This document shows, one piece after another, positions 3 through 44,262 of a stretch of 58,411 nt of DNA; the stretch's first letter is position 1; every line of letters begins with the position of its first letter. The notes beneath the pieces are model-generated. The model saw nothing but the letters and a program-made list of their open reading frames with translations. It was not told where the DNA came from and did no database searches. This stretch comes from Candidatus Solincola daggyaiensis (lineage in GTDB: Bacteria > Actinomycetota > Geothermincolia > Geothermincolales > RBG-13-55-18), in assembly GCA_015711825.1 (NCBI GenBank), contig JACVJD010000004.1, forward strand, positions 1 through 58,411, read 5' to 3'. Both the position numbers and the translations under genes were made by a program.

Positions 3-53
3 TGCCGCGGTCTGGGCATCGAGCGCATCTCGTCCCGGGTGTCCGTACGCTGA
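3..53 (+). CDS. 3' end of an unidentified plus-strand gene (partial)
   Basis: An open plus-strand frame enters from the left edge and ends at a TGA at 51-53, giving sixteen residues (CRGLGIERISSRVSVR). It would be convergent with the prepilin gene, whose stop lies five bases further on. The fragment is too short to identify and may be chance. Confidence 0.3.
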   Translation, partial: CRGLGIERISSRVSVR

Positions 54-57
54 GGCT

Positions 58-1143
58 TCACTCCTTCACCACCCGCAGCTTGGAGACGTCGACCTCGTTG
101 CCCTTGCTCACCGTTTTGTAGTACCACTTGCCCGTCTTGATGTCGTACCACAGGGACCAGTTGCTCTTGGAGGTGAGCACCTTCTCGTTGCCCTTAAGGT
201 CCACCACCACCAGGCTGTAGCCTTTCTCCGGGGTGACCTTGACCCTGCTGCCGGCGGGGGTGTAGATGATGTTGTCCACGGGTTTCTTCCAGAACTCGGG
301 GTCCAGCCCGATGTCGGTGTAGGCGTAATCGCCCCAGCTCCTGGGATAGCGCTTGTTCTTCTCGTAGTACTGCTTGATGAGGTCCACCATGCCGATGGTT
401 ATCTCGCCGAAGCCGTCCCCCAGGGGCGTCTTCTTCTCGGATGCCGCCTTGCCCAGCACGTGGCTCCAGGCCACCTTGCGCGGCTGGTCGTGCCGGAACC
501 TGGTGCCGTCCGAGCGCGTGCCCACCTGGTTGTCGGTGAGGCAGGTCACGGAGAGGCCGTCGGTGACGTAGTCGTACTTCCCGGCCACCTCGCCCACCCC
601 CCTGCCGTTGGAGGGGCAGTCGAAGGGGCCGTGTCCTTTCCCCCCCTCCTCCGCCAGCATCGCCGTGGGCAGGCCGGGGAGGGTGCAATAGGGGTTGAAG
701 GGGACCCCGCCGCGGGCCTCGAAGTACTCGGCCAGGGAGCGGCCGGTGTCTCCGGCTATGTTTCCGTCCAGGTCGATATAGGCCTCGCCGCCGCCGGGAA
801 GGCAGCCGTCGTCCAGCAGCGACTCGTCGGGGTGGTCGGCCCTCCATCGCATGATGGCGTACTCCACGGACCTCTCGTTGTGCAGGCAGACGCTCCGCTC
901 GGCCACGTCCCTCACCGAGACGTAAACGGGAAGCGCCAGGGCAGCGAGTATGCCGATGAGCAGGATGACGATGGTTATCTCGATCAAGGTGAAGCCGGGA
1001 GAGAACCCCTTCTCGCGCGCCGTTACGGACACGCCGGCGCGAGGATTTCCCGGTCCCCGCGCGTCCGCCCGGAGAGCCCGGCCCTTAAGCGCGGCCTGGC
1101 GGGAACTAGGCGACTGCGCCGCTCTTTTATCCCCTGCCTTCAT
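58..1143 (-). CDS. type IV prepilin / pseudopilin-like protein
   Basis: About 361 residues. The class III signal is clear: a prepilin-peptidase site G|FTLIE with Glu at +5, followed by about 20 hydrophobic residues (ITIVILLIGILAALALPVY), then a long mostly polar domain with several Cys (LHNERS.., CTLPG, FDCPSNG, VTCL). The start is the ATG at 1143, preceded by a GGGGTGAGG-like ribosome site; an in-frame ATG at 1233 is longer but would overlap the upstream gene. With this start the cleaved leader is about 50 residues, much longer than the usual 5-25, so a later GTG start is possible. Last gene of a pilus operon; the stop of the upstream zinc-finger gene lies four bases before it. It is likely assembled by the PilB/GspE ATPase encoded two genes upstream. 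Its large C-terminal domain suggests a minor or specialised pilin rather than a small major pilin. Confidence 0.85.
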   Translation of the reverse strand: MKAGDKRAAQSPSSRQAALKGRALRADARGPGNPRAGVSVTAREKGFSPGFTLIEITIVILLIGILAALALPVYVSVRDVAERSVCLHNERSVEYAIMRWRADHPDESLLDDGCLPGGGEAYIDLDGNIAGDTGRSLAEYFEARGGVPFNPYCTLPGLPTAMLAEEGGKGHGPFDCPSNGRGVGEVAGKYDYVTDGLSVTCLTDNQVGTRSDGTRFRHDQPRKVAWSHVLGKAASEKKTPLGDGFGEITIGMVDLIKQYYEKNKRYPRSWGDYAYTDIGLDPEFWKKPVDNIIYTPAGSRVKVTPEKGYSLVVVDLKGNEKVLTSKSNWSLWYDIKTGKWYYKTVSKGNEVDVSKLRVVKE

Positions 1144-35430: not shown

Positions 35431-38400
35431 TCACGGCTCCCCCCCGCTTCCCGACCCCGCCGCCTGCGCGCCAGCCGCCCTATCCAGCGGCACCCTCACC
35501 GACATGACCGTCCCCTCTCCGGGAGCTCCCGTTATCCTTACCTCGCCCCCGAAGAAATGGGCGCGCTCACGCATGCCGAGGATGCCCAGAGAAGCGGGAT
35601 CGAGGGCTTCGGCCTCGCTTATCCCCCGGCCGTCGTCCCTCACCTCCATCTCCAGCCAGCCGTCGCCGCCGCTCAGGCGCAACTCCACCCTGCGCGCCTC
35701 CGCGTGCCTCGCCACGTTGGTAAGCGCTTCCTGGGCGATGCGGAAAAAGGCGGTGGAGAGGTCCTTGTCGATGCGGCGCCTGGCGTCTTCGTCAAGCTCA
35801 GAACGGAAACGGTATTCCACCCCGGACATCTCCCCGAACCTCTTCAACTGCCACTCCAGGGCCGCCTCCAGGCCGAGGTCGTCCAGGATTCCCGGTCGCA
35901 GGGATGCCGCTATCTCGCGCACCGCCTTTATCGCGGAATCGACCACCTCCGTCATGCCCTCCACTTGCCCCAACAAATCGGGGCGCTCGGCGAGCTTCTT
36001 GGCCAGAAGGGACAGGTTTATCTTCAGCCCCGTCAAGGCCTGGCCCAGGGTGTCGTGCACCTCGCGGGATATGTGGCGGCGCTCCTCCTCGCGGATGGAC
36101 TCCAGGCGGGCGGTGAGGGCGCGCAGCCTCTGCATGGTGACCCGCAGCTCCTCCTGGCGGAGCCTGCGCTCGCCGACCTCCTTCTCAAGCCTGCGGTTGA
36201 CCCGCTCGAGTTCCCGCGTGCGCTCCCTGACCATATCCTCCAGGTTTTTCCTATACTTGTCCAGCTCGGCTTCCGACCACATGCGCAGCACCGCCATGGC
36301 GTAGAGGTCGGCCAGCCTTCCCAGGACCTCCAGGTCCCTGGGACCGTAATCGCGCTCGGCATTGGCCACCGCCACCTGTCCCACCAGCGCCCCTCCCAGG
36401 AGGGCGGGCACGGAGAGAAAGCGCCTGATGGGGATATGCCCCTCCGGCACCCCCGTGGAGCGCGGGTCGCTCTCGGGATGGTTGGTGAGCAGGGCCTGCC
36501 GGTTTTTCAACACCCACCCCCATAAGCCCTTGAACTCCTTGAAGACGATGGCCTTTTCCTGCATGGAGCATTCTCCCCACACCTCCCTGGTGAGGGTGGG
36601 CGAGACCAGGTAACCGGTATCGCTGTCTATATATCCCACGTAGCCGTGGGCGCTGCCGGTGAGCCGCTTGGCGTTTTCCAGCACCACCTGCGAGACGTCC
36701 TCGATGGAGGCCTGGGCCAGCAACGCCCCAGCGAGCTCGGCCATGGAGCGGTTGACCTCCGACTCCCAAGCCAGCGCCTCCTCCGTGCGCACACGCCTGG
36801 TCACGTCCCTGACCACGCTGCCCACCATCAGCCCCTCGCGGGAGCGGATGGGAAAGGTCACCGCCTGCACGATGCGCTTATCGCCCGCGGGGGTCTGCAA
36901 CTCGCGCTCGCTGGTCTCCCCGAACCAGGTCTCGTACCCCCTGCGCAGCGACTCCAGGGCGGCGGATTTCATCTCCTCGTATGCCTCGGGCGTCCTGCGC
37001 TCCGGCAAGGCGAGACGGTATTGAACGTCCCAGAGGAATCGCCCCATGGTCTCCTCCCCGGCCAAGCCCATGATGTCCTCCATGGCGCTGTTCCACTCCA
37101 CGATCCTTCCCTCGCCGTCCACCAGCACGATGCCGTCCGCCGACTGCTCGATCACGCTGCGGAACTTCTCCTCGCTCTCCCTGAGAGCGTCCTCGATGCG
37201 CACGCGCTCCGAGATGTCCTGGACGACGTGCACCCCGAACTCGAGCTCGCCGCGCTCATCGAAGACGGGGGAGAGGGAGATCCAGAGGTGCTTCCCCAAC
37301 TTGGGCTCGTAGACCTCCTTGCGCGCCCCGCAACCGGCCCGCAGCGACTCCTCGCACACGCAGAAATCAGGCGGGGCGTCGGTGCCGTGGATGAGCTCGA
37401 AGCAGCTATGCCCGGTGTAGTCTGCGTGCTCTCCCAGGAGTTCGCAGAGGGCGGCGTTGTGCTGGACGATGCGGTACTCGCTGTCGATGACCAGCATGGC
37501 GTCCCCGATGGCGTCGAAGGAGCGCTGCCACCTCTCCTTGGCCGACCTCTCCGCATCCAGGATCGCTTTCTGCTCCGTGACCTCTTTCTCCCTGAAGACC
37601 GCCAGGGCTTCTTCGCCCCGCTCCACGGGCAACGGTCGCGCCTCCTGCTCATACCACCTCTCCCCGCGCCGCAGCTCCCGCCCCGCCGGCGAGCCGGCGG
37701 CGAGCGCCTGCTCGAGCAGCGTCAGCGCGGCCTTTCCCTCCTCCCCGGCCAGGGCATCTCCCAGCCCGATTCCCCGCAGCTCCTCCGCGTCCCTTCCCAG
37801 GCGGCGCGAGGCCGCCTGGTTGGCGGCGAGCACCCTTCCATGGGCGTCGCAGAGCAGCAGGATTTCGTCGCTGGCGTCAAGGATGGCCCTCTCGCGGCGT
37901 TCACGGTCCTTCAACCTGCGGAAGAGCAGCTCGTAAGGCTCCTCGAGACCCGTATCCACTATGGCCCGGTAGAGCAAGTAGAAGGAAACGATCTTCAGGA
38001 AATGACCCAGGAGGTTGGGGAGGGCGTAGGGGTCCTGGTAGAGGGTAAAGGAGAGCTCGGAGGCGATGGCCACGGCGATGGAGGCAAGGATGAGCCGCAT
38101 CACCCTGGTGTTCATCTCCCCTCTCCTGGCGTAGAGAAAGGCCATGGCCCCCGCCATCATGGCGCAGATGACGTACTCGCTCACCTTCTTGAAGGGGGTC
38201 AGCCCGGAACCCTCCATGAAGCAGGCTGGAAATATATCCCATAGGAAGACGCTCGCCAGCGCCAGGGCGGAAACCGCCGCGTAAACCGCCATGTCCAGGT
38301 AGATCCGAAGCGCGCGCGCCAGGAAGAGCGGCGCCAGAAGCAGGGAGAACGCCTCCAGGTAACGGGCGATCACCCATAACTGGGTGGCGAGGTTCGCGCC

Positions 38401-38709
38401 GTTCCCGTCGAAGACGCCCATGCCCGAGTAGGCCAGCATATGCAGGAGGTCGATCGCCCCCACGAAGAGGTAAGCCACCCCCAGGAAGGCGAGGAAGCCG
38501 TTGTCCGCGGAGCGCCGGGTGTGCCAGGCGAGGATGAAAACGGAGAAGGCCACCAGCGAGCTGAAGACCTCGGCGGCGGCGTGGAAGAGGAGATAGTTGC
38601 GGCGGCTCACGAGATAAAGCGCCGCGAACACCGCCAGGCCCGCCGCCACCCGCCAGGTGGCGTCAAGCCACCCCCTCCCGGTACTTCTTCCGGCGCTTTC
38701 ATCTCCCAT
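35431..38709 (-). CDS. membrane sensor histidine kinase (MASE3-PAS-GAF-HisKA_3)
   Basis: 1092 residues. Eight hydrophobic segments within about 15-255 form a MASE3-type sensor (VAYLFVGAIDLLHMLAYSGM). Three PAS regions follow (about 275-385, 395-515, 520-645; the second carries CVCEESLRAGC), then GAF (about 655-815, VVLENAKRLTGSAHGYVGYID), a coiled coil (ERTRELERVNRRLEKEVGERRLRQEEL), HisKA_3 with EERRHISREVHDTLGQALTGLK (His about 885), and a HATPase domain (LRPGILDDLG, VRDDGRGI, LGILGMRERA). It signals through the NarL-family regulator just downstream. The multiple soluble sensors suggest integration of redox or ligand cues. Confidence 0.93.
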   Translation of the reverse strand: MGDESAGRSTGRGWLDATWRVAAGLAVFAALYLVSRRNYLLFHAAAEVFSSLVAFSVFILAWHTRRSADNGFLAFLGVAYLFVGAIDLLHMLAYSGMGVFDGNGANLATQLWVIARYLEAFSLLLAPLFLARALRIYLDMAVYAAVSALALASVFLWDIFPACFMEGSGLTPFKKVSEYVICAMMAGAMAFLYARRGEMNTRVMRLILASIAVAIASELSFTLYQDPYALPNLLGHFLKIVSFYLLYRAIVDTGLEEPYELLFRRLKDRERRERAILDASDEILLLCDAHGRVLAANQAASRRLGRDAEELRGIGLGDALAGEEGKAALTLLEQALAAGSPAGRELRRGERWYEQEARPLPVERGEEALAVFREKEVTEQKAILDAERSAKERWQRSFDAIGDAMLVIDSEYRIVQHNAALCELLGEHADYTGHSCFELIHGTDAPPDFCVCEESLRAGCGARKEVYEPKLGKHLWISLSPVFDERGELEFGVHVVQDISERVRIEDALRESEEKFRSVIEQSADGIVLVDGEGRIVEWNSAMEDIMGLAGEETMGRFLWDVQYRLALPERRTPEAYEEMKSAALESLRRGYETWFGETSERELQTPAGDKRIVQAVTFPIRSREGLMVGSVVRDVTRRVRTEEALAWESEVNRSMAELAGALLAQASIEDVSQVVLENAKRLTGSAHGYVGYIDSDTGYLVSPTLTREVWGECSMQEKAIVFKEFKGLWGWVLKNRQALLTNHPESDPRSTGVPEGHIPIRRFLSVPALLGGALVGQVAVANAERDYGPRDLEVLGRLADLYAMAVLRMWSEAELDKYRKNLEDMVRERTRELERVNRRLEKEVGERRLRQEELRVTMQRLRALTARLESIREEERRHISREVHDTLGQALTGLKINLSLLAKKLAERPDLLGQVEGMTEVVDSAIKAVREIAASLRPGILDDLGLEAALEWQLKRFGEMSGVEYRFRSELDEDARRRIDKDLSTAFFRIAQEALTNVARHAEARRVELRLSGGDGWLEMEVRDDGRGISEAEALDPASLGILGMRERAHFFGGEVRITGAPGEGTVMSVRVPLDRAAGAQAAGSGSGGEP

Positions 38710-39102: not shown

Positions 39103-41787
39103 TCACGGGGATGGCCCTTGATCAGGCACGAAGCCGACCACGTCGTGTCCCCCGTCCCACCCTGAGCCGTAACGGAAGTACATGGGTCGCTCGGCCACCA
39201 CGCTTCCCCCGCTCACCACCGCCAAGCGCGTCGAAAGCTGGTAGCCCTCCCCGGCGTGCTCGTTGACCAGGACGGTCACCCTGCTGCGCCCCGGCACCCT
39301 CACTTCGCGCGCCGGCAGTTCGCCTTCCTCCTGGGTGTAATAACGCACCTCCACCACGGCCTCATCTTCACTCGGGTTCTGGAGACACAGCCATTGCTGG
39401 AAAGACCCACCGGTGTACCCTTCGGCGAAGAGCCACTCGCCGCCGGGCGAGGTCGCCCCGATCACGCAGTGGCCACCCGCAGCACGAAGGTCAGCGCAGG
39501 AGTAATCGAAATACATGGGGCGCTCGGCAAGAAATGCGTCTTCCGAGGCGAGCCTGACCGAGAAATCCTTTTCCCATCCTATTTCGTCGGGGACGAAAAC
39601 GGTGCGGCGGAAACCGCCCCCCACCTCGTACTCACGGCTTACCGGCTCCCCCTGCCCCACCCCGAGCTGGTAGTCCGCGGTCACGGTGATGGGGTGATCG
39701 CCGGGGTTCTGGAGGGTGATCCAGGCCTCGAAACCACGCCTGGTGGTCCCCTCCGCGAAATAATAGGCGTCGGCCAGAGCGGTGGCCCCTGGCACGCAGT
39801 GGCCTCCCTCCCAGCCATGATCTTCCCTGCCGGCGTAACGGAAATACATGGGGCGCTCCGCGACCAACTCCTGGGTGGACTCCACCAGCAGCGAGGCCTG
39901 GTATCCTCTCCCCAGGAGGTCGTTTACCTTGAAGGTCCGCCGCGACCTCGCCGGGACCTCGTGACCGCTTTTCACCACTTCACCCGCCTCCTGGGTCTGG
40001 AAACGGAAGCTCACCTGCGCCGGGGCGTCGCCGGGGTTGAGCAGGCAGACCCACTCGTCGAACCCATCGCCGGTGTAGCCCTCCGCGAAGTACCAGAAGG
40101 TCGAGGGCTCCGGCGCCCCCACGGCGTCGTGGCCGCCCTTCCACTTCCCCATGTAATCGAAATACATGGGGCGCTCCGCCAGCACCCGCCCGTCGCTCTC
40201 GACCTTTATGGACACATCGCGCCCGGCGCCCGCTTCCTCGTTCACGTTCAGGGTGGTCCTGGAGCTGGCGTCCAGTAGGTAATCCCTGGTAAACGGCGCC
40301 GTGCCGTCGGCGTAGAGGTAGGTGACCTGGGCGACGGCCCCGGCGCCGTCCCGGTTGAGAAGGCACAGCCATTCCGCGAAACCCTCTCCCGTGTAACCCT
40401 CGGCGAAATAGCAGGAGGATTCCACGCTCGGCAGTGGGACCACGAAGTTCACCCCGTTGGAAGTCCCGCCGGGGGTGTTCACCGTCAACCAGCCCGACAA
40501 GGCGCCATCCGGGACCTCGCATATGACGCGGCTGGAATTCCATTCCAGATACACGCCGGCAGCGACTCCGGAAAAGGACACATATGACGAGCCCCGCTGG
40601 TCTCCGAACCCGCTACCGGTTATGGTAACCTGCGTTCCCGGAGCCCCGGACATCGGGCTCACGGAAGCGATGTGGGGAGTCCCCGTTCCCCCGCTCCTGA
40701 AGCGGTTGTAGGCTAGGTTGAGGAGGGGCACGAACTCCGCGGTGGCTTTACGGTTGCCCACGTAGTTGGGATGGTCGTCGTCGCTGGGGTAGGCGAGGGT
40801 GTTGCCGCCGTCGTCCGTCTTGTGCTGGACGGCGCCGTTGATCCAGCGATGGTGGTTGCCGCTCTCCCAGCCGAGATCGCTGGCATAGGCGCTGCCGCCG
40901 TTGCTGGTGAGGACGTTGTAGAAATCGAAGACGAAGACGTTGTTGTACGGATACCCGTCGAGCCAGTCGTTCACCAGCCAGTCGTTGAAGGCGCGGGCGT
41001 TGGCGGCGTAGGTCCCGTCTATCAGGGGAGGGGCGGTCACGGCCACGAAGAGCTTGTCCTGCCTGGTCTTGAAATACTCCAGGAGGTCGATATAGATGCC
41101 CTTGGCGTTAGCCACCGTCAGGGGCCCTGAATTCCCCTTGAGCGGGTTGGACGAGATGGGGGGCACGGGTTCGCCGGGGCTCCCCTCCAGGGCGGAGTTG
41201 GGAAAACAGGATTTGAACATGACGATCTCGTTCTCGCCCCCGGGGTCGTCGGCCAGGCGGGAGTAATAGCAGTTCTGCCCGCTTTCCGCGTAGAGGGCGG
41301 CGGTGTAGGCAGGGCTGGACGGCCCCCTGAACCAGGACCACCAGTGCCCTATGTCCGTGCTGCTCCCGATCTCGTCCGGGCCCCACCCGTAGTTGGTGTC
41401 GCTCACGAAGTAGGTGTTGTCGCGCAGGGCCTTCCCGAGGCCGCCGTTATCGTCGTTCAGCCAGTTCTCACCGCAGGAATGGTGGACGAAAACGAGCTTG
41501 ACCGGGTTAGCGGGAGGGGTGGGATCAAGTGATGCTACGGACATGTCAAGCGCATCAAGGGCTGAAAGCCGCGCGCCGGGCGCGGCGTCGCGCGCCGCGG
41601 CTGCCGCCCCCGCTGCGGGCAAAGAAGTGTCGACGCGGGGGAGAGCCGCTATCCCTGCAAGCGTGCCCGCCTTCGCCTCTGTCCACCCCGGCGCTGCCGC
41701 GGGAGCGGCCGAAGCCGCGATGACCAGGGCCACCAGGGCAATTGCAACAGTCGGTAGCGGGACGCGGTATCGATGAAATCGACACAT
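39103..41787 (-). CDS. exported SGNH-like / IPT-TIG / four-repeat surface protein
   Basis: 894 residues from ATG 41787 (GAGAGAGGTGAGAACG upstream). Signal peptide (VAIALVALVIAASAAPAAA). Residues about 95-370 look like an SGNH-type fold (VKLVFVHHSCGENWL, VMFKSCFPNSAL, DDDHPNYVGN). An IPT/TIG domain follows (IASVSPMSGAPGTQVTITGSGFGD). The last 450 residues are four repeats of about 105 residues, each starting near YFAEGYTGxGFxEWLCLxNP and ending near AERPMYFxYxGxWxGGH. No sortase motif or membrane anchor is seen at the C-terminus. It probably acts outside the cell in carbohydrate or surface binding or deacylation (inference). Confidence 0.8.
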   Translation of the reverse strand: MCRFHRYRVPLPTVAIALVALVIAASAAPAAAPGWTEAKAGTLAGIAALPRVDTSLPAAGAAAAARDAAPGARLSALDALDMSVASLDPTPPANPVKLVFVHHSCGENWLNDDNGGLGKALRDNTYFVSDTNYGWGPDEIGSSTDIGHWWSWFRGPSSPAYTAALYAESGQNCYYSRLADDPGGENEIVMFKSCFPNSALEGSPGEPVPPISSNPLKGNSGPLTVANAKGIYIDLLEYFKTRQDKLFVAVTAPPLIDGTYAANARAFNDWLVNDWLDGYPYNNVFVFDFYNVLTSNGGSAYASDLGWESGNHHRWINGAVQHKTDDGGNTLAYPSDDDHPNYVGNRKATAEFVPLLNLAYNRFRSGGTGTPHIASVSPMSGAPGTQVTITGSGFGDQRGSSYVSFSGVAAGVYLEWNSSRVICEVPDGALSGWLTVNTPGGTSNGVNFVVPLPSVESSCYFAEGYTGEGFAEWLCLLNRDGAGAVAQVTYLYADGTAPFTRDYLLDASSRTTLNVNEEAGAGRDVSIKVESDGRVLAERPMYFDYMGKWKGGHDAVGAPEPSTFWYFAEGYTGDGFDEWVCLLNPGDAPAQVSFRFQTQEAGEVVKSGHEVPARSRRTFKVNDLLGRGYQASLLVESTQELVAERPMYFRYAGREDHGWEGGHCVPGATALADAYYFAEGTTRRGFEAWITLQNPGDHPITVTADYQLGVGQGEPVSREYEVGGGFRRTVFVPDEIGWEKDFSVRLASEDAFLAERPMYFDYSCADLRAAGGHCVIGATSPGGEWLFAEGYTGGSFQQWLCLQNPSEDEAVVEVRYYTQEEGELPAREVRVPGRSRVTVLVNEHAGEGYQLSTRLAVVSGGSVVAERPMYFRYGSGWDGGHDVVGFVPDQGPSP

Positions 41788-42267
41788 CGTTCTCACCTCT
41801 CTCTGCCGGCCGCCATCGCGACCGAGGCGGCCGCCGTGACGGCATGCAAAGCCCGGGACGGCGAACGGCAGCGAATCTCCACCAGATGCGCCCATCCTCG
41901 CTTTCAACACGAGATGGGAAAGCCTCCCGCCACCGCTTCAGGCACGGCCTCGTGGGAACACCTTCCACATCCCCATAATAATATTCGGCTTTTCCTTTCC
42001 CGGCCGCAACCATCTGATGTTCGCCCCAGAGAATCGGCATCGCCCTAAGGTTCAAGGCTAAGATGAAGGTCCCGCTATGGATGGAGAAAAACTACTTGTG
42101 GTAAGGAAAAGGGCTCGTTTATAAAGAAAGAGGAGGGGCGGCAGCATCAGTCATACACCTTCACGAGGCTACGTTCGTTACCTTCGCCCAAAGGCGATCC
42201 CCCAGGCACGGCCATGCCGGGCGTGCGCGTGAGGAAAAGGCGTTTCGTAAAGCGACAGGAGGGAAGC
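41788..42267. other. 480-base divergent intergenic region
   Basis: Gap between the exported protein gene (minus) and the acyl-CoA ligase gene (plus). It contains the ligase promoter listed separately and no recognised gene. Confidence 0.4.
42096..42124 (+). promoter_or_regulatory. possible promoter of the acyl-CoA ligase gene
   Basis: TTGTGG (42096-42101), spacer 17, TTATAA (42119-42124), about 140 bases before the ATG. Confidence 0.35.
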
Positions 42268-43941
42268 ATGGAAGAGAGGCCCTGGCACAAGTCATACGCG
42301 CCCGGGGTGCCGTGGAGCATCGAATACCAGCGGCTTACGGTCTCCGAGGGACTGGCGCGCTCCGCCCGCGACTTCCCGGACCGGACCGCCCTGAACTACA
42401 TGGGCGCGAAAATCTCCTACCGCAAGCTGGACGAGCTGGTGAACCGCTTCGCCCGCGCCCTTTCGGATCTCGGCATAGGCAAAGGCGACAAGGTGGCCAC
42501 CATCATGCCCAACATCCCGCAGATGATCGTCGCCAACATGGCCGCCTTCCGCATCGGAGCGGTGGTGGTGCTCAACAACCCCCTCTACACCGAGCGGGAA
42601 CTGCAATACCAGCTCGACGACTCCGACGCCAGGATAGCCGTGACCCTCACCCTGCTGGTGCCGCGCATCGAGAAGATCATGGCCGAGACCAAGCTGGAGA
42701 AGGTGGTGGGCTGCCAGATCAACACCCACCTCTCCTTCCCCAAGAAGCAGCTCTTCCCCTACGTGCGCAAGGCCATGTACAGAAAGATCGAGCCCACCGA
42801 CAAGGTGCTGCGCTACGAGGACCTGATCAGGAAATACCCCGGGGACCCGCTGGAGGACCAAGGGGAATGGGAGGAGCTCTCCACCATCATCTACACCGGG
42901 GGCACCACCGGAAAGAGCAAGGGCGTGATGCTCAGCCACAAGAACATCAGCGTCAACGTGCAGCAGTTCGCGGCCTGGTTCCCGGACCTGGAACGCGGAA
43001 AATACTCCCTGGTGGGCACCTTCCCCGTCTTCCACGCCGCCGGCTTCACCGCCTGCCAGAACTTCTTCTGCTGGCAGGCATGGGAGCACTGCATGATCCC
43101 CCGCCCGGAGCCCAAGGCGGTGATCGAGATCCTCAAGCGCGACCGCCCGGATTTCCTGCCCGGCGTGCCCACCATTTTCGTGGGCCTGCTGGCGGAGCCG
43201 GAGTTCCGGCGCATGGACCTCTCCTTCATCAAGGGCTTCTTCTCCGGCGCCGCCCCCCTCGCCGCCGACACCATCCGCGACCTCAAGGAGCTCACCGGGG
43301 CCACCATCCTCGAGGTCTACGGGCAGACGGAGACCGCCCCCGTGGCCACCGTCACCCCCTGGGGAGGGGAGATCAAGCCCGGCACGGTGGGCATCCCGGT
43401 ACCGGACACGGACATAAGGATCGTGGACCTGGACACGGGGGAGCGGGAGCTGCCCCTGGGGGAGGCGGGCGAGATCGTCATCTCCGGCCCCCAGTGCATG
43501 ATGGGTTATTACAAGAAGCCGGAGGAGACCGCCCAGGCGCTGCGCGACGGCTGGGTGTACACCGGGGATATAGGTTTCTTCGACGAAGACGGATATCTCT
43601 CGGTGGTGGACCGCAAAAAGGACATGGTAATCGCGGGAGGCTACAACATCTACCCGGTGGAGATCGACAACGTGCTCTTCGACCACCCCAAGATACTGGA
43701 GGCCTGCGCGGTGGGGGTGCCGGACCCCTATCGCGGAGAGACCGTCAAGGCCTTCATCGTGGTCAAGGAGGGGGAGTCCTTGAGCGAGGAGGAGGTCATC
43801 TCCTACTGCAAGGAGAACCTCGCTCCCTACAAGGTCCCCACCCACATAGAGTTCGTGGAGGAGCTTCCCAAGAGCGTGGTGGGGAAGATCCTCCGCCGCG
43901 AGCTGCGCGACCGCGAGCTGAAAAAGCGGCAGGGCGATTGA
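42268..43941 (+). CDS. fadD: long-chain fatty acid-CoA ligase family (AMP-forming)
   Basis: 557 residues. ATG 42268 follows GACAGGAGGGAAGC, better than the upstream frame start at 42214. Motifs: ATP-binding IIYTGGTTGKSKGVMLSH (about 210-227), YGQTETAP, GDIGFFDEDGYLSVVDRKKDMVIAGGYNIYPVEID, and the C-terminal catalytic Lys in PKSVVGKILRREL. It activates a carboxylic acid, probably a fatty acid, to its CoA thioester through an acyl-adenylate. It is a single gene between the exported repeat protein and its degraded copy, on the opposite strand to both. Confidence 0.9.
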   Translation: MEERPWHKSYAPGVPWSIEYQRLTVSEGLARSARDFPDRTALNYMGAKISYRKLDELVNRFARALSDLGIGKGDKVATIMPNIPQMIVANMAAFRIGAVVVLNNPLYTERELQYQLDDSDARIAVTLTLLVPRIEKIMAETKLEKVVGCQINTHLSFPKKQLFPYVRKAMYRKIEPTDKVLRYEDLIRKYPGDPLEDQGEWEELSTIIYTGGTTGKSKGVMLSHKNISVNVQQFAAWFPDLERGKYSLVGTFPVFHAAGFTACQNFFCWQAWEHCMIPRPEPKAVIEILKRDRPDFLPGVPTIFVGLLAEPEFRRMDLSFIKGFFSGAAPLAADTIRDLKELTGATILEVYGQTETAPVATVTPWGGEIKPGTVGIPVPDTDIRIVDLDTGERELPLGEAGEIVISGPQCMMGYYKKPEETAQALRDGWVYTGDIGFFDEDGYLSVVDRKKDMVIAGGYNIYPVEIDNVLFDHPKILEACAVGVPDPYRGETVKAFIVVKEGESLSEEEVISYCKENLAPYKVPTHIEFVEELPKSVVGKILRRELRDRELKKRQGD

Positions 43942-44082
43942 CGGGCGCGAGGGCGAGGGTTGCAGCTGGATGATGGAGGCTGAACAAACCCGGGCTGTTC
44001 GATGGTCCGGCGGGCGCGTGGCAACCGAGCCGGCATTGACGCCTGCCACGGGAGATGTAGCGACGCTCAGAGTCGGAGGCGG

Positions 44083-44262
44083 TCAGTCGCCGGGTATATA
44101 CCCCAGGACGTCGCGGCCGCCGTCCCAGCCGGGTCCGTAGGCGAAACACATGGGGCGTTCGGCCGCGATCCCGCCGTCGCTTTCTTCTTTTTTGGACACC
44201 TCCCGACCTGCTCCCGCCTCGCGGCCGATGGGGTCCGGTCCCCAGCCGTAACCTCCACTTTT
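44083..44262 (-). pseudogene. remnant of the exported repeat protein
   Basis: A minus-strand frame without a start reads GYGWGPDPIG, matching NYGWGPDEIG of the SGNH-like domain at 39103-41787, then jumps to REAGAGREVSKKEESDGG, AERPMCFAYGPGWDGG and DVLGYIPGD before a TGA, matching the last repeat and C-terminus. The centre of the protein has been lost by deletion. It is a degraded paralogue lying on the other side of the acyl-CoA ligase gene. Confidence 0.7.

Follow-up and report, generated by a model that had tools for sequence, protein, structure and literature searches.

This gene of Candidatus Solincola daggyaiensis may encode an exported SGNH enzyme, either an ester hydrolase or an O-acyl transferase, which a pseudo-tetramer of four ASRAH repeats displays on the producer's own envelope, a reading to which we give slightly better than even odds (roughly 0.5). 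The proposal draws on computed domain identities and folds, a fixed array length, transfer of an end strand, varied front ends and class-wide spread. A broader proposal, which we hold at a little short of even odds, is that the class of Candidatus Solincola displays many exported enzymes via a four-fold, ring-closed ASRAH module docking on one envelope glycan, with four units held while the arrays were amplified or homogenised separately and the opening point of the ring moved; one such enzyme would belong to a mobile SGNH family that bacteria and archaea share with at least one phage.

The gene and its SGNH domain

The gene lies in a window of 58,411 nucleotides (contig JACVJD010000004.1, positions 1 to 58,411). 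Within the open frame 39103-41910(-), the ATG at 41787 is the best start and gives 894 amino acids. A first-pass annotation of the DNA had proposed a single exported protein with SGNH-like, TIG and four repeat domains of about 105 residues each; we agree on one protein of this composition, and its N-terminus, with basic, hydrophobic and AxA parts in the manner of a signal peptide, suggests that it is exported. The features bearing on the gene start and the first domain, together with a nearby relic, are as follows.

39103-41787, minus strand: coding sequence (894 amino acids plus stop) of the putatively exported SGNH-TIG-(ASRAH)4 protein, from the ATG at 41787
41793-41800, minus strand: AGAGGTGA, Shine-Dalgarno-like, 5 bases upstream of the ATG
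41692-41787, minus strand: N-terminus resembling a signal peptide, MCRFHRYRVPLPTVAIALVALVIAASAAPAAA; best hydrophobic 15-residue mean 2.73
40693-41505, minus strand: SGNH-fold domain, about residues 95-365
41476-41478, minus strand: codon of Ser104 in HHS (S15 of the domain), predicted nucleophile
40771-40779, minus strand: codons of Asp337-Asp338-His339 (D248, D249 and H250 of the domain), predicted acid and base of DxH
44074-44250, minus strand: relic, probably of a second copy, with the SGNH motif YGWGPDPIG (44224-44250) fused directly to the tail of a last repeat (AERPMCFAYGPGWDGGRDVLGY); no intact frame

The AlphaFold2 model of the N-terminal domain (pLDDT 80.6, pTM 0.86) has the alpha/beta/alpha SGNH fold. 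Its best PDB matches by VIA are GDSL/SGNH esterases, CE3 and acetylxylan esterases, PAF acetylhydrolases and PatB (Z 10.1 to 12.2; 173-179 residues at 3.0-3.3 A in the top five), within lists that re-examine Foldseek's own matches. This fold supports the earlier view of the domain as SGNH-like; the serine motif described for it, HHSCGENW and not GDS, lies at residues 102-109. Conservation was counted over the 79 of 83 aligned rows with more than 220 residues, the query among them; alignment A1 dropped four of 16 relatives (L057, L064 and L065 for X stretches, L066 for an internal deletion). In domain numbering, S15, G47, S104, C105 and H250 are kept in 79 of 79 rows, N108 in 78 and D248 in 76. 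The block I Ser stands at the end of strand 1 (E7-13), in HHS; the block II Gly could be G47 or G45 (the latter in 94%); and the block III Asn, within FKSCxPNS, is replaced by Cys in the divergent forms L067 and L068. Block V has Asp two residues before His and an unconserved position -3, hence DxH rather than DxxH. S15 and H250 are the putative counterparts of the catalytic residues of known SGNH enzymes. Ser104, His339 and Asp337, with an oxyanion Gly and Asn197, would then hydrolyse or transfer an ester; the most likely target is an O-acyl group carried by an extracellular glycan.

Such a signature could also mark a catalytically dead domain serving in glycan binding or adhesion, given that all three motifs are altered (GDS to HHS, GxND to FKSCxPNS, DxxH to DxH) and that the domain matched no Pfam or NCBIfam model, no hydrolase family model recognising it. 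We think this very unlikely: at each of the S, G, N and H positions at most one of the 79 rows, which come from many phyla, departs from the conserved residue, DxH is known from AlgX/AlgJ and CE20, and active families with unusual block I motifs are described in excerpts of a review (DxH and review: PMC9487903, PMC12313940).

The first-pass annotation had regarded the protein as one of this lineage, a view that fails for the SGNH domain. One scan matched the domain in 380 stretches; the best 80 of these come from many different phyla of both bacteria and archaea, and lineage specificity is rejected. At 59-88% identity in these 80, between distant phyla and both domains of life, the family stands outside the Pfam and NCBIfam models, and up to 380 stretches could be assigned to an enzyme class, each with a serine to test. 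One phage contig, from IMG/VR, carries the domain; plasmid and phage records gave no match, and PADLOC and PHROGs returned nothing on the 894-residue protein. No neighbour was kept across the 80 loci. Neighbour clusters present in 11 and 9 of them resemble common signal-transduction and ABC ATPase families, as judged from one example sequence each.

Four ASRAH repeats

The remainder of the protein consists of a TIG domain, as previously annotated, which would act as a spacer, and the four repeats.

40444-40677, minus strand: IPT/TIG domain, residues 371-448 (Pfam PF01833, E 3.8e-13)
40114-40413, minus strand: ASRAH repeat 1, by repeat profile
39784-40095, minus strand: ASRAH repeat 2, by repeat profile; covered by the TM1070 structural match
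39454-39765, minus strand: ASRAH repeat 3, by repeat profile
39130-39438, minus strand: ASRAH repeat 4, by repeat profile

The repeats are 39-55% identical in pairs, far above chance, and each matches the repeat profile at E 2.3e-29 to 2.5e-34, although this profile was built partly from the same repeats. They are members of an already known superfamily of beta-sandwiches, ASRT/ASRAH (DUF5719). Pfam DUF5719 (PF18986) matches the whole protein at E 9.7e-15 and the C-terminal part alone at 3.2e-17 in four stretches; its score of 54.9 bits exceeds the curated cut-off of 26.2, each repeat covering only part of the 319-position model, and a PF07100 match also exceeds its cut-off. Against the PDB, the top matches of the repeat profile are TM1070 (1.4e-5) and then ASRT (4.9e-4). 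The eight-stranded sandwich matches TM1070 by VIA with Z 15.8 over 107 residues at 2.4 A, the next unrelated entry reaching Z 6.4; in Foldseek with the tetrad model, ranks 1-12 are multi-domain chains (probability 0.20-0.63) and TM1070 stands at rank 13 by E-value with probability 1.00. These matches reject a new fold and bear out both the repeat family and the beta-sandwich suggested for it at first. The first-pass annotation had named a match to a well-known domain of assigned function as evidence against it, and this applies in part: the superfamily is a described one, while its assigned function, sugar binding, is a prediction made in 2009 (PMC2739507, in part). We found no literature match for DUF5719 by name, and among the papers listed for ASRAH one bears on the subject.

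At residue level, an Asn at the end of strand 2 (N20) is present in at least 90% of 59 repeats (alignment A3, drawn from 123 selected) and in all four here; a Trp at the start of strand 1, the majority residue of the 59, occurs in repeats 2 and 4 only. The ligand signature SHEshChhN, assigned in the relevant part of PMC2739507 to the ASRT-like family only, is absent from the four repeats, which read GFAEWLCLLN, GFDEWVCLLN, GFEAWITLQN and SFQQWLCLQN. TM1070 contacts its ligand analogue through two residues, a His and a Cys; the His is found in none of the four repeats (A, D, E and Q there) and the Cys in three.

AlphaFold modelled the four repeats as a single rigid body (pLDDT 96.2, pTM 0.94 over 437 residues). 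In three genomes, 67 of the 80 tandem arrays away from contig ends have exactly four units, with hits at most 140 bases apart joined and contig extents known for the own genome only. Among 55 tetrads, unit 1 lacks strand 1 in 12, and all 12 carry an extra C-terminal strand of WYFAEG type, which occurs in none of the 43 with a complete unit 1. A pattern search gave 12, 2, 0 and 41, and two units that it had called incomplete (WFMPEG and WYLPEG, model start 2) were then counted as complete by eye; one open-ended tetrad was left out, and alignment A2 dropped one four-hit array with partial hits (L167). The 12 of 55 is not a frequency, because 20 stretches from genomes G005 and G006 were hand-chosen, 8 of them for a first hit starting at model position 10-11, and the 12 tetrads, which form about five gene groups by flanking sequence, provide only about that many independent cases for the association. 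Strand 1 of unit 1 has moved to the C-terminus in these tetrads, and therefore the sequences themselves suggest that the four repeats close into a ring. The arrangement is probably that of the ASRT tetramer; the repeats would form a rigid covalent pseudo-tetramer equivalent to the ASRT/TM1070 homotetramer. Single repeats (21 of 101 arrays away from contig ends in the three genomes) count against a ring, because one repeat cannot close on itself. Specialisation of repeats by position was expected and was not found among paralogues, the best match falling at the same position in 26 of 92 cases.

The tetrad as a class-wide module

A search for the repeat beyond this protein, which the first-pass annotation had advised, revealed a class-wide expansion: all 31 genomes searched have matches, from 33 to at least 152 per genome, the copy numbers being lower bounds because the scans scored at most 150 candidates per genome, and one of them at most 16. 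In three genomes, the usual place of a tetrad is the tail of an exported protein, behind front ends that are unrelated between proteins, and an export-like stretch is present in 22 of 24 four-hit frames. Among 22 of the 23 other such frames, the front ends include subtilase (3), SpoIID (2), NlpC/P60, YkuD, polysaccharide deacetylase, CAP and 5'-nucleotidase, as well as propellers, FG-GAP, Ig-like and other domains; four frames have none and one has only a sub-threshold match. The tetrad is not always terminal, because 259 residues follow it in one protein and at least 134 in its relative.

Since ASRAH domains are predicted sugar binders (PMC2739507) and the tetrad accompanies the SGNH domain, a polysaccharide deacetylase and a GH39-like protein of a relative (L067), it could be a carbohydrate-binding module that brings each enzyme to foreign or environmental polysaccharides and not to the producer's surface. 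This is unlikely in our view. The same tetrad is carried by subtilases, YkuD, SpoIID, 5'-nucleotidase and CAP proteins, whose substrates are unrelated, so that a common location fits better than a common substrate; the presence of the repeat in every class genome searched also speaks against it.

Display on the producer's own surface is the likeliest role of the tetrad, judged from architecture: since the same bundle recurs on many exported proteins of the class, it may be what holds them there, and the pseudo-tetramer, made of sugar-binding-type domains, would do so by binding a surface glycan. The earlier placing of the protein among surface- and polysaccharide-related ones is probably right. 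Of the established anchors, CWB2 was found in none of 30 class genomes, and SLH gave one or two matches in 26 of the 30. Sortase genes occur in 21 of 30, one of them 0.8 kb upstream of the CAP-tetrad gene in the own genome and others no more than 2 kb from repeat matches in ten other genomes (at least 11 in all), from which we infer that covalent display exists too. The sortase genes, the loss of the TM1070 ligand His and the lack of position-specific residues among paralogous repeats are compatible with a rigid stalk or oligomerisation platform without a ligand, any retention coming from something else, such as a sortase-built structure. We consider this improbable: a stalk would tolerate a variable repeat number, yet most arrays have exactly four units; tetrad ends exchange a strand; and the own-genome stretches examined show no LPxTG-like tail. 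The literature found for Geothermincolia concerned cultivation, and that listed for Solincola contained nothing on surface proteins.

If surface display by the tetrad is correct, this poorly known Actinomycetota class, with CWB2 not found and SLH rare, would have a general surface-display module. It would also provide a clean test case for fixed repeat number, because here whole domains would form a ring that an exchanged strand closes.

Comparison with known systems

A beta-propeller closes its ring when the repeat at one terminus is completed by a strand that the other terminus supplies; the tetrad resembles it in this respect and differs in being built of whole beta-sandwich domains instead of blades. 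With ASRT/ASRAH proteins (TM1070, 1NC7; Anabaena ASRT, 2II7; PF07100, PF18986) it shares the sandwich, the profile match and the Asn ending strand 2. However, ASRT is intracellular and builds its tetramer from separate single-domain chains, and the ligand His is absent here. ASRAH tetrads fused to exported enzymes were noted earlier in Chloroflexi amidases (PMC2739507, in part), whereas here they are class-wide on many unrelated front ends, some with end-strand exchange.

The SGNH domain resembles CE3 enzymes (2VPT, 5B5S), PAF acetylhydrolase (1WAB) and PatB (7TJB) in fold (Z 10-12), in the Ser after strand 1 and in Gly, Asn and a His before the last helix. It differs in HHSxGxNWL for GDS, in its block III and V motifs, in length (about 280 amino acids), in an extra conserved NHHRW element and in matching no Pfam or NCBIfam model. 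AlgX/AlgJ and CE20 likewise place the block V acid two residues before His, but AlgX/AlgJ are circularly permuted with GTSYS and CE20 has GQSNM; neither HHS nor FKSCxPNS appears in the excerpted descriptions of these families (PMC9487903, PMC12313940).

SLH and CWB2 triads, the non-covalent wall anchors of Gram-positive bacteria, have an unrelated fold and three units rather than four, a glycan being the putative ligand of the tetrad. If our reading is right, in both systems tandem repeats, few and constant in number, make up a single unit. Such triads occur on a wide range of exported proteins, peptidoglycan enzymes and proteases among them (PMC4973711, in part), and the ASRAH tetrad, common to dozens of exported proteins, may be the general surface module of its class, a part that SLH or CWB2 triads play in Firmicutes.

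The gene and the nature of its repeats

The open frame proposed for 39103-41787 by the first-pass annotation, an exported SGNH-like protein carrying a TIG domain and four repeats in tandem, was confirmed. The frame spans 39103-41910 on the minus strand, and its best start, ATG 41787, has AGAGGTGA immediately upstream and yields 894 aa with an N-terminus that reads as signal-peptide-like. In Pfam scans, residues 371-448 match TIG (E 3.8e-13) and the whole protein matches DUF5719 (E 9.7e-15) and ASRT (E 1.1e-6); the C-terminal part by itself matches DUF5719 in four stretches (3.2e-17) and ASRT (6.1e-8). Pairwise identity among the four repeats is 39-55%. The neighbours, from translations read by eye only, look like a large sensor histidine kinase (35431-38709, minus strand) and an acyl-CoA synthetase-like gene (42214-43941, plus strand).

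The repeats are ASRAH domains. The first PDB sequences found by a profile of 59 single repeats were Thermotoga TM1070 (1nc7, 1.4e-5) and Anabaena ASRT (4.9e-4). An AlphaFold2 model of the four-repeat array, or tetrad, built from an alignment of 37 tetrads, had a mean pLDDT of 96.2 and a pTM of 0.94. Its top match in VIA was TM1070 (Z 15.8 over 107 residues, 2.4 A, 20% identity), with ASRT entries at Z 12.4-12.9 and the next chain, unrelated, at 6.4; Foldseek gave TM1070 a probability of 1.00, but placed it only 13th by E-value. The superfamily was named ASRAH, with sugar binding predicted, by De Souza, Iyer and Aravind (PMC2739507), whose accessible text describes exported families as dyads or tetrads and solo TM1070 as a tetramer; DUF5719 is probably the actinobacterial family of that paper. 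A second repeat form (WYLAEGCTxGGxETWVLVQNPG ... ERAxYGxxRxWxHDSxGxxx) occurs singly at protein ends in the repeat loci L180:165-2408 (minus strand), L188:1745-3358 (plus strand) and L157:3967-4284 (minus strand), and by analogy with ASRT may mediate tetramerisation between chains.

Number, closure and evolution of the units

Arrays were built by joining matches by position in the window genome (3.0 Mb in 190 contigs, completeness 95%; at least 142 repeat matches at E 0.001, with 150 of 184 candidates scored) and in two less fragmented genomes of the same family. The 101 arrays away from known contig ends comprised 67 of four, 21 of one, 8 of two, 4 of three and 1 of five matches, so that exactly four matches make up 67 of the 80 tandem arrays; the sole five-match array includes two partial matches, and none of the 80 has five full units. 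Among 52 window-genome frames with repeats, 24 carry four matches and none carries more, and in 21 of these 24 the protein continues for no more than 17 residues past the last repeat. The tetrad is not always terminal, because a further 259 residues follow it in L149:142-2490 (minus strand) and at least 134 in a relative, L207:3-1883 (minus strand). Complete arrays in stretches from further members of the class, Geothermincolia, are mostly of four too; the exceptions are L067 (three), L068 (five matches, two partial), and L060 and L066 (one each).

In strand-closed beta-propellers a terminal strand closes the ring, and some tetrads show a similar end-to-end strand transfer. We examined 55 tetrads whose 3-prime end is known, a partly hand-picked sample in which proportions are not frequencies; 12 start at model position 10-12, with no first strand (the stretch W-Y-F-A-E-G) in unit 1. 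All 12 carry a further copy of this strand after unit 4 (e.g., C-terminal WYFAEGYTGS), against 0 of the 43 tetrads whose unit 1 is complete; an automatic pattern count gave 12, 2, 0 and 41 (Fisher 2e-10), the 2 being pattern misses that read as complete. The permuted tetrads fall into roughly five gene groups (CAP, two SpoIID types, NlpC/P60 with SLH, and L152, with front ends from Pfam for own-genome members only), so the case for strand transfer has about five events behind it rather than 12. Such transfer preserves the fold only if units 1 and 4 touch, which together with the pTM argues for a closed pseudo-tetramer, a model well supported by the pTM, the fixed number, the strand exchange and the ASRT precedent. 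The tetrad of the studied protein is of the unpermuted form.

Mean repeat identity is 46.2% within one protein versus 36-38% between different proteins. Position-specific repeats were expected, an idea rejected because the best match in another protein occupied the same array position in only 26 of 92 cases, about chance. Same-genus and same-family homologues keep positions (64-78% identity on the diagonal, 37-54% off it), L061 and L065 of another family keep them weakly (49-63% vs 35-53%), and L059 has no position correspondence of its repeats, though its SGNH domain is 71% identical. These identities indicate that arrays are homogenised separately. Four units are retained though the units look equivalent and the arrays have apparently been rebuilt.

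Fold, spread and decay of the SGNH domain

The AlphaFold2 model of the SGNH domain (13 sequences) had a pLDDT of 80.6 and a pTM of 0.86. Its best VIA rows (Z 10.1-12.2) are GDSL lipases, CE3 and acetylxylan esterases, PAF acetylhydrolase, sialate esterases and PatB; designed scaffolds account for three of the rows. The alignment ends pair model residues 5..271 with 37..216 in 1WAB and 5..276 with 34..234 in 2VPT; were these ends ungapped, S15 and H250 (domain numbering) would fall on what we take to be the catalytic Ser and His of those structures. Invariant in 79 of 79 aligned rows, query included, are H13, H14, S15, G17, G47, S104, C105, H223, H224 and H250, with N108 in 78 and D248 in 76. 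The domain shares its DxH arrangement with AlgX/AlgJ and CE20, where the accessible literature describes an acid two residues before the His as a known variant (PMC9487903, PMC12313940). No Pfam or NCBIfam model scored better than E 0.09 for any member of the 13-sequence alignment, and the domain profile had no match in the PDB. The fold and family of both protein halves are well supported.

Two peptide patterns, run in one scan of an 84,980-species collection, yielded 380 matched stretches encoding relatives of the domain. The best 80 of these (59-88% identical over the best segment) comprise 67 from Bacteria, 12 from Archaea and one unassigned, and together carry 17 phylum labels. In a quick tree built from 79 rows, 33 phylum-label changes were required against a minimum of 16; shuffled labels averaged 49.9 changes, with 0 of 200 as low as 33, so the labels cluster beyond chance. 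With label changes in excess, clustering still present and many records coming from metagenome bins, transfer of the domain is likely, though mis-binning partly confounds the picture. The domain lies within 14 residues of the protein end in 17 of the 80 loci, other sequence continuing elsewhere, and is accompanied by repeats in 11, all contigs of class genomes. It occurs in 15 of 31 class genomes, deleted in one of these; outside the class, a weak broken match appeared in 1 of 166 phylum genomes. An IMG/VR contig encodes the domain at 41% identity beside terminase large and small subunits, so at least one phage carries it as well. On this contig, which also encodes an HNH endonuclease, the domain sits within a repetitive 613-aa protein (L195:1649-3490, plus strand) that retains HHS, KSCFPNS, DNHHR and DDHPS and is possibly a virion esterase.

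Decay of the domain is suggested at two loci, one of them in the window:

44074-44250, minus strand: relic with SGNH block II motif YGWGPDPIG joined directly to the last part of a final repeat, flanked by stops

This relic, 2.3 kb upstream of the studied gene on the same strand, is most likely a second copy of it, almost wholly deleted. In a same-genus homologue (L066:9072-10109, minus strand) the SGNH domain is internally deleted, RHS replaces HHS and one repeat is left; the enzyme seems to be undergoing loss in that genome.

The tetrad as a module and its proposed role

The tetrad is a general module of exported proteins. N-terminal parts were scanned for 22 of the 23 other four-match frames of the window genome, L167 (two partial matches) being left out. 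The domains identified by Pfam include subtilase (three), SpoIID (two), NlpC/P60 with SLH, YkuD, polysaccharide deacetylase, CAP, 5'-nucleotidase/metallophosphatase, PQQ propeller, FG-GAP, bacterial Ig, DUF11, DUF362 and TIG; the scan found no domain in the front ends of L161, L175, L150:9501 and L149:2155, and only a sub-threshold match in L152. An export-like hydrophobic stretch is present in 22 of 24 four-match frames, the exceptions being L162, which a contig end truncates, and L161, with an uncertain start. The repeat is present in each of the 31 class genomes searched (33 to at least 152 matches). Phylum-wide, 97 of 296 genomes have a match, 25 of them class members; among the 72 outside the class, two have at least 9 and at least 13 matches and the others 1 to 4.

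Other display systems were sought in 30 class genomes: CWB2 (PF04122) had 0 matches, SLH (PF00395) one or two in 26 genomes, and sortase (PF04203) one to four in 21. The single SLH match of the window genome sits inside the strand-permuted NlpC/P60-tetrad protein (L170:3122-5518, minus strand). A sortase frame of the same genome (L169:845-1495, plus strand) lies upstream of the CAP-tetrad gene (L169:2275-4122, plus strand) at a distance of 0.8 kb, and ten further genomes of the family have a sortase match no more than 2 kb from repeat matches. No tetrad protein has a strongly hydrophobic C-terminal end, and no LPxTG-like tail occurs in the own-genome stretches searched, which cover part of the genome.

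The studied protein is most likely an ester hydrolase or acyl transferase displayed on the envelope by a four-fold ASRAH anchor. The SGNH domain would perform ester hydrolysis or acyl transfer at the envelope, on a substrate indicated by enzyme class only, and the tetrad would hold the protein there, an anchoring role predicted from architecture alone. The nearest working analogues of the tetrad are the SLH and CWB2 triads; according to the accessible text of PMC4973711, 29 wall proteins of C. difficile, peptidoglycan enzymes and proteases among them, have three CWB2 motifs in common.
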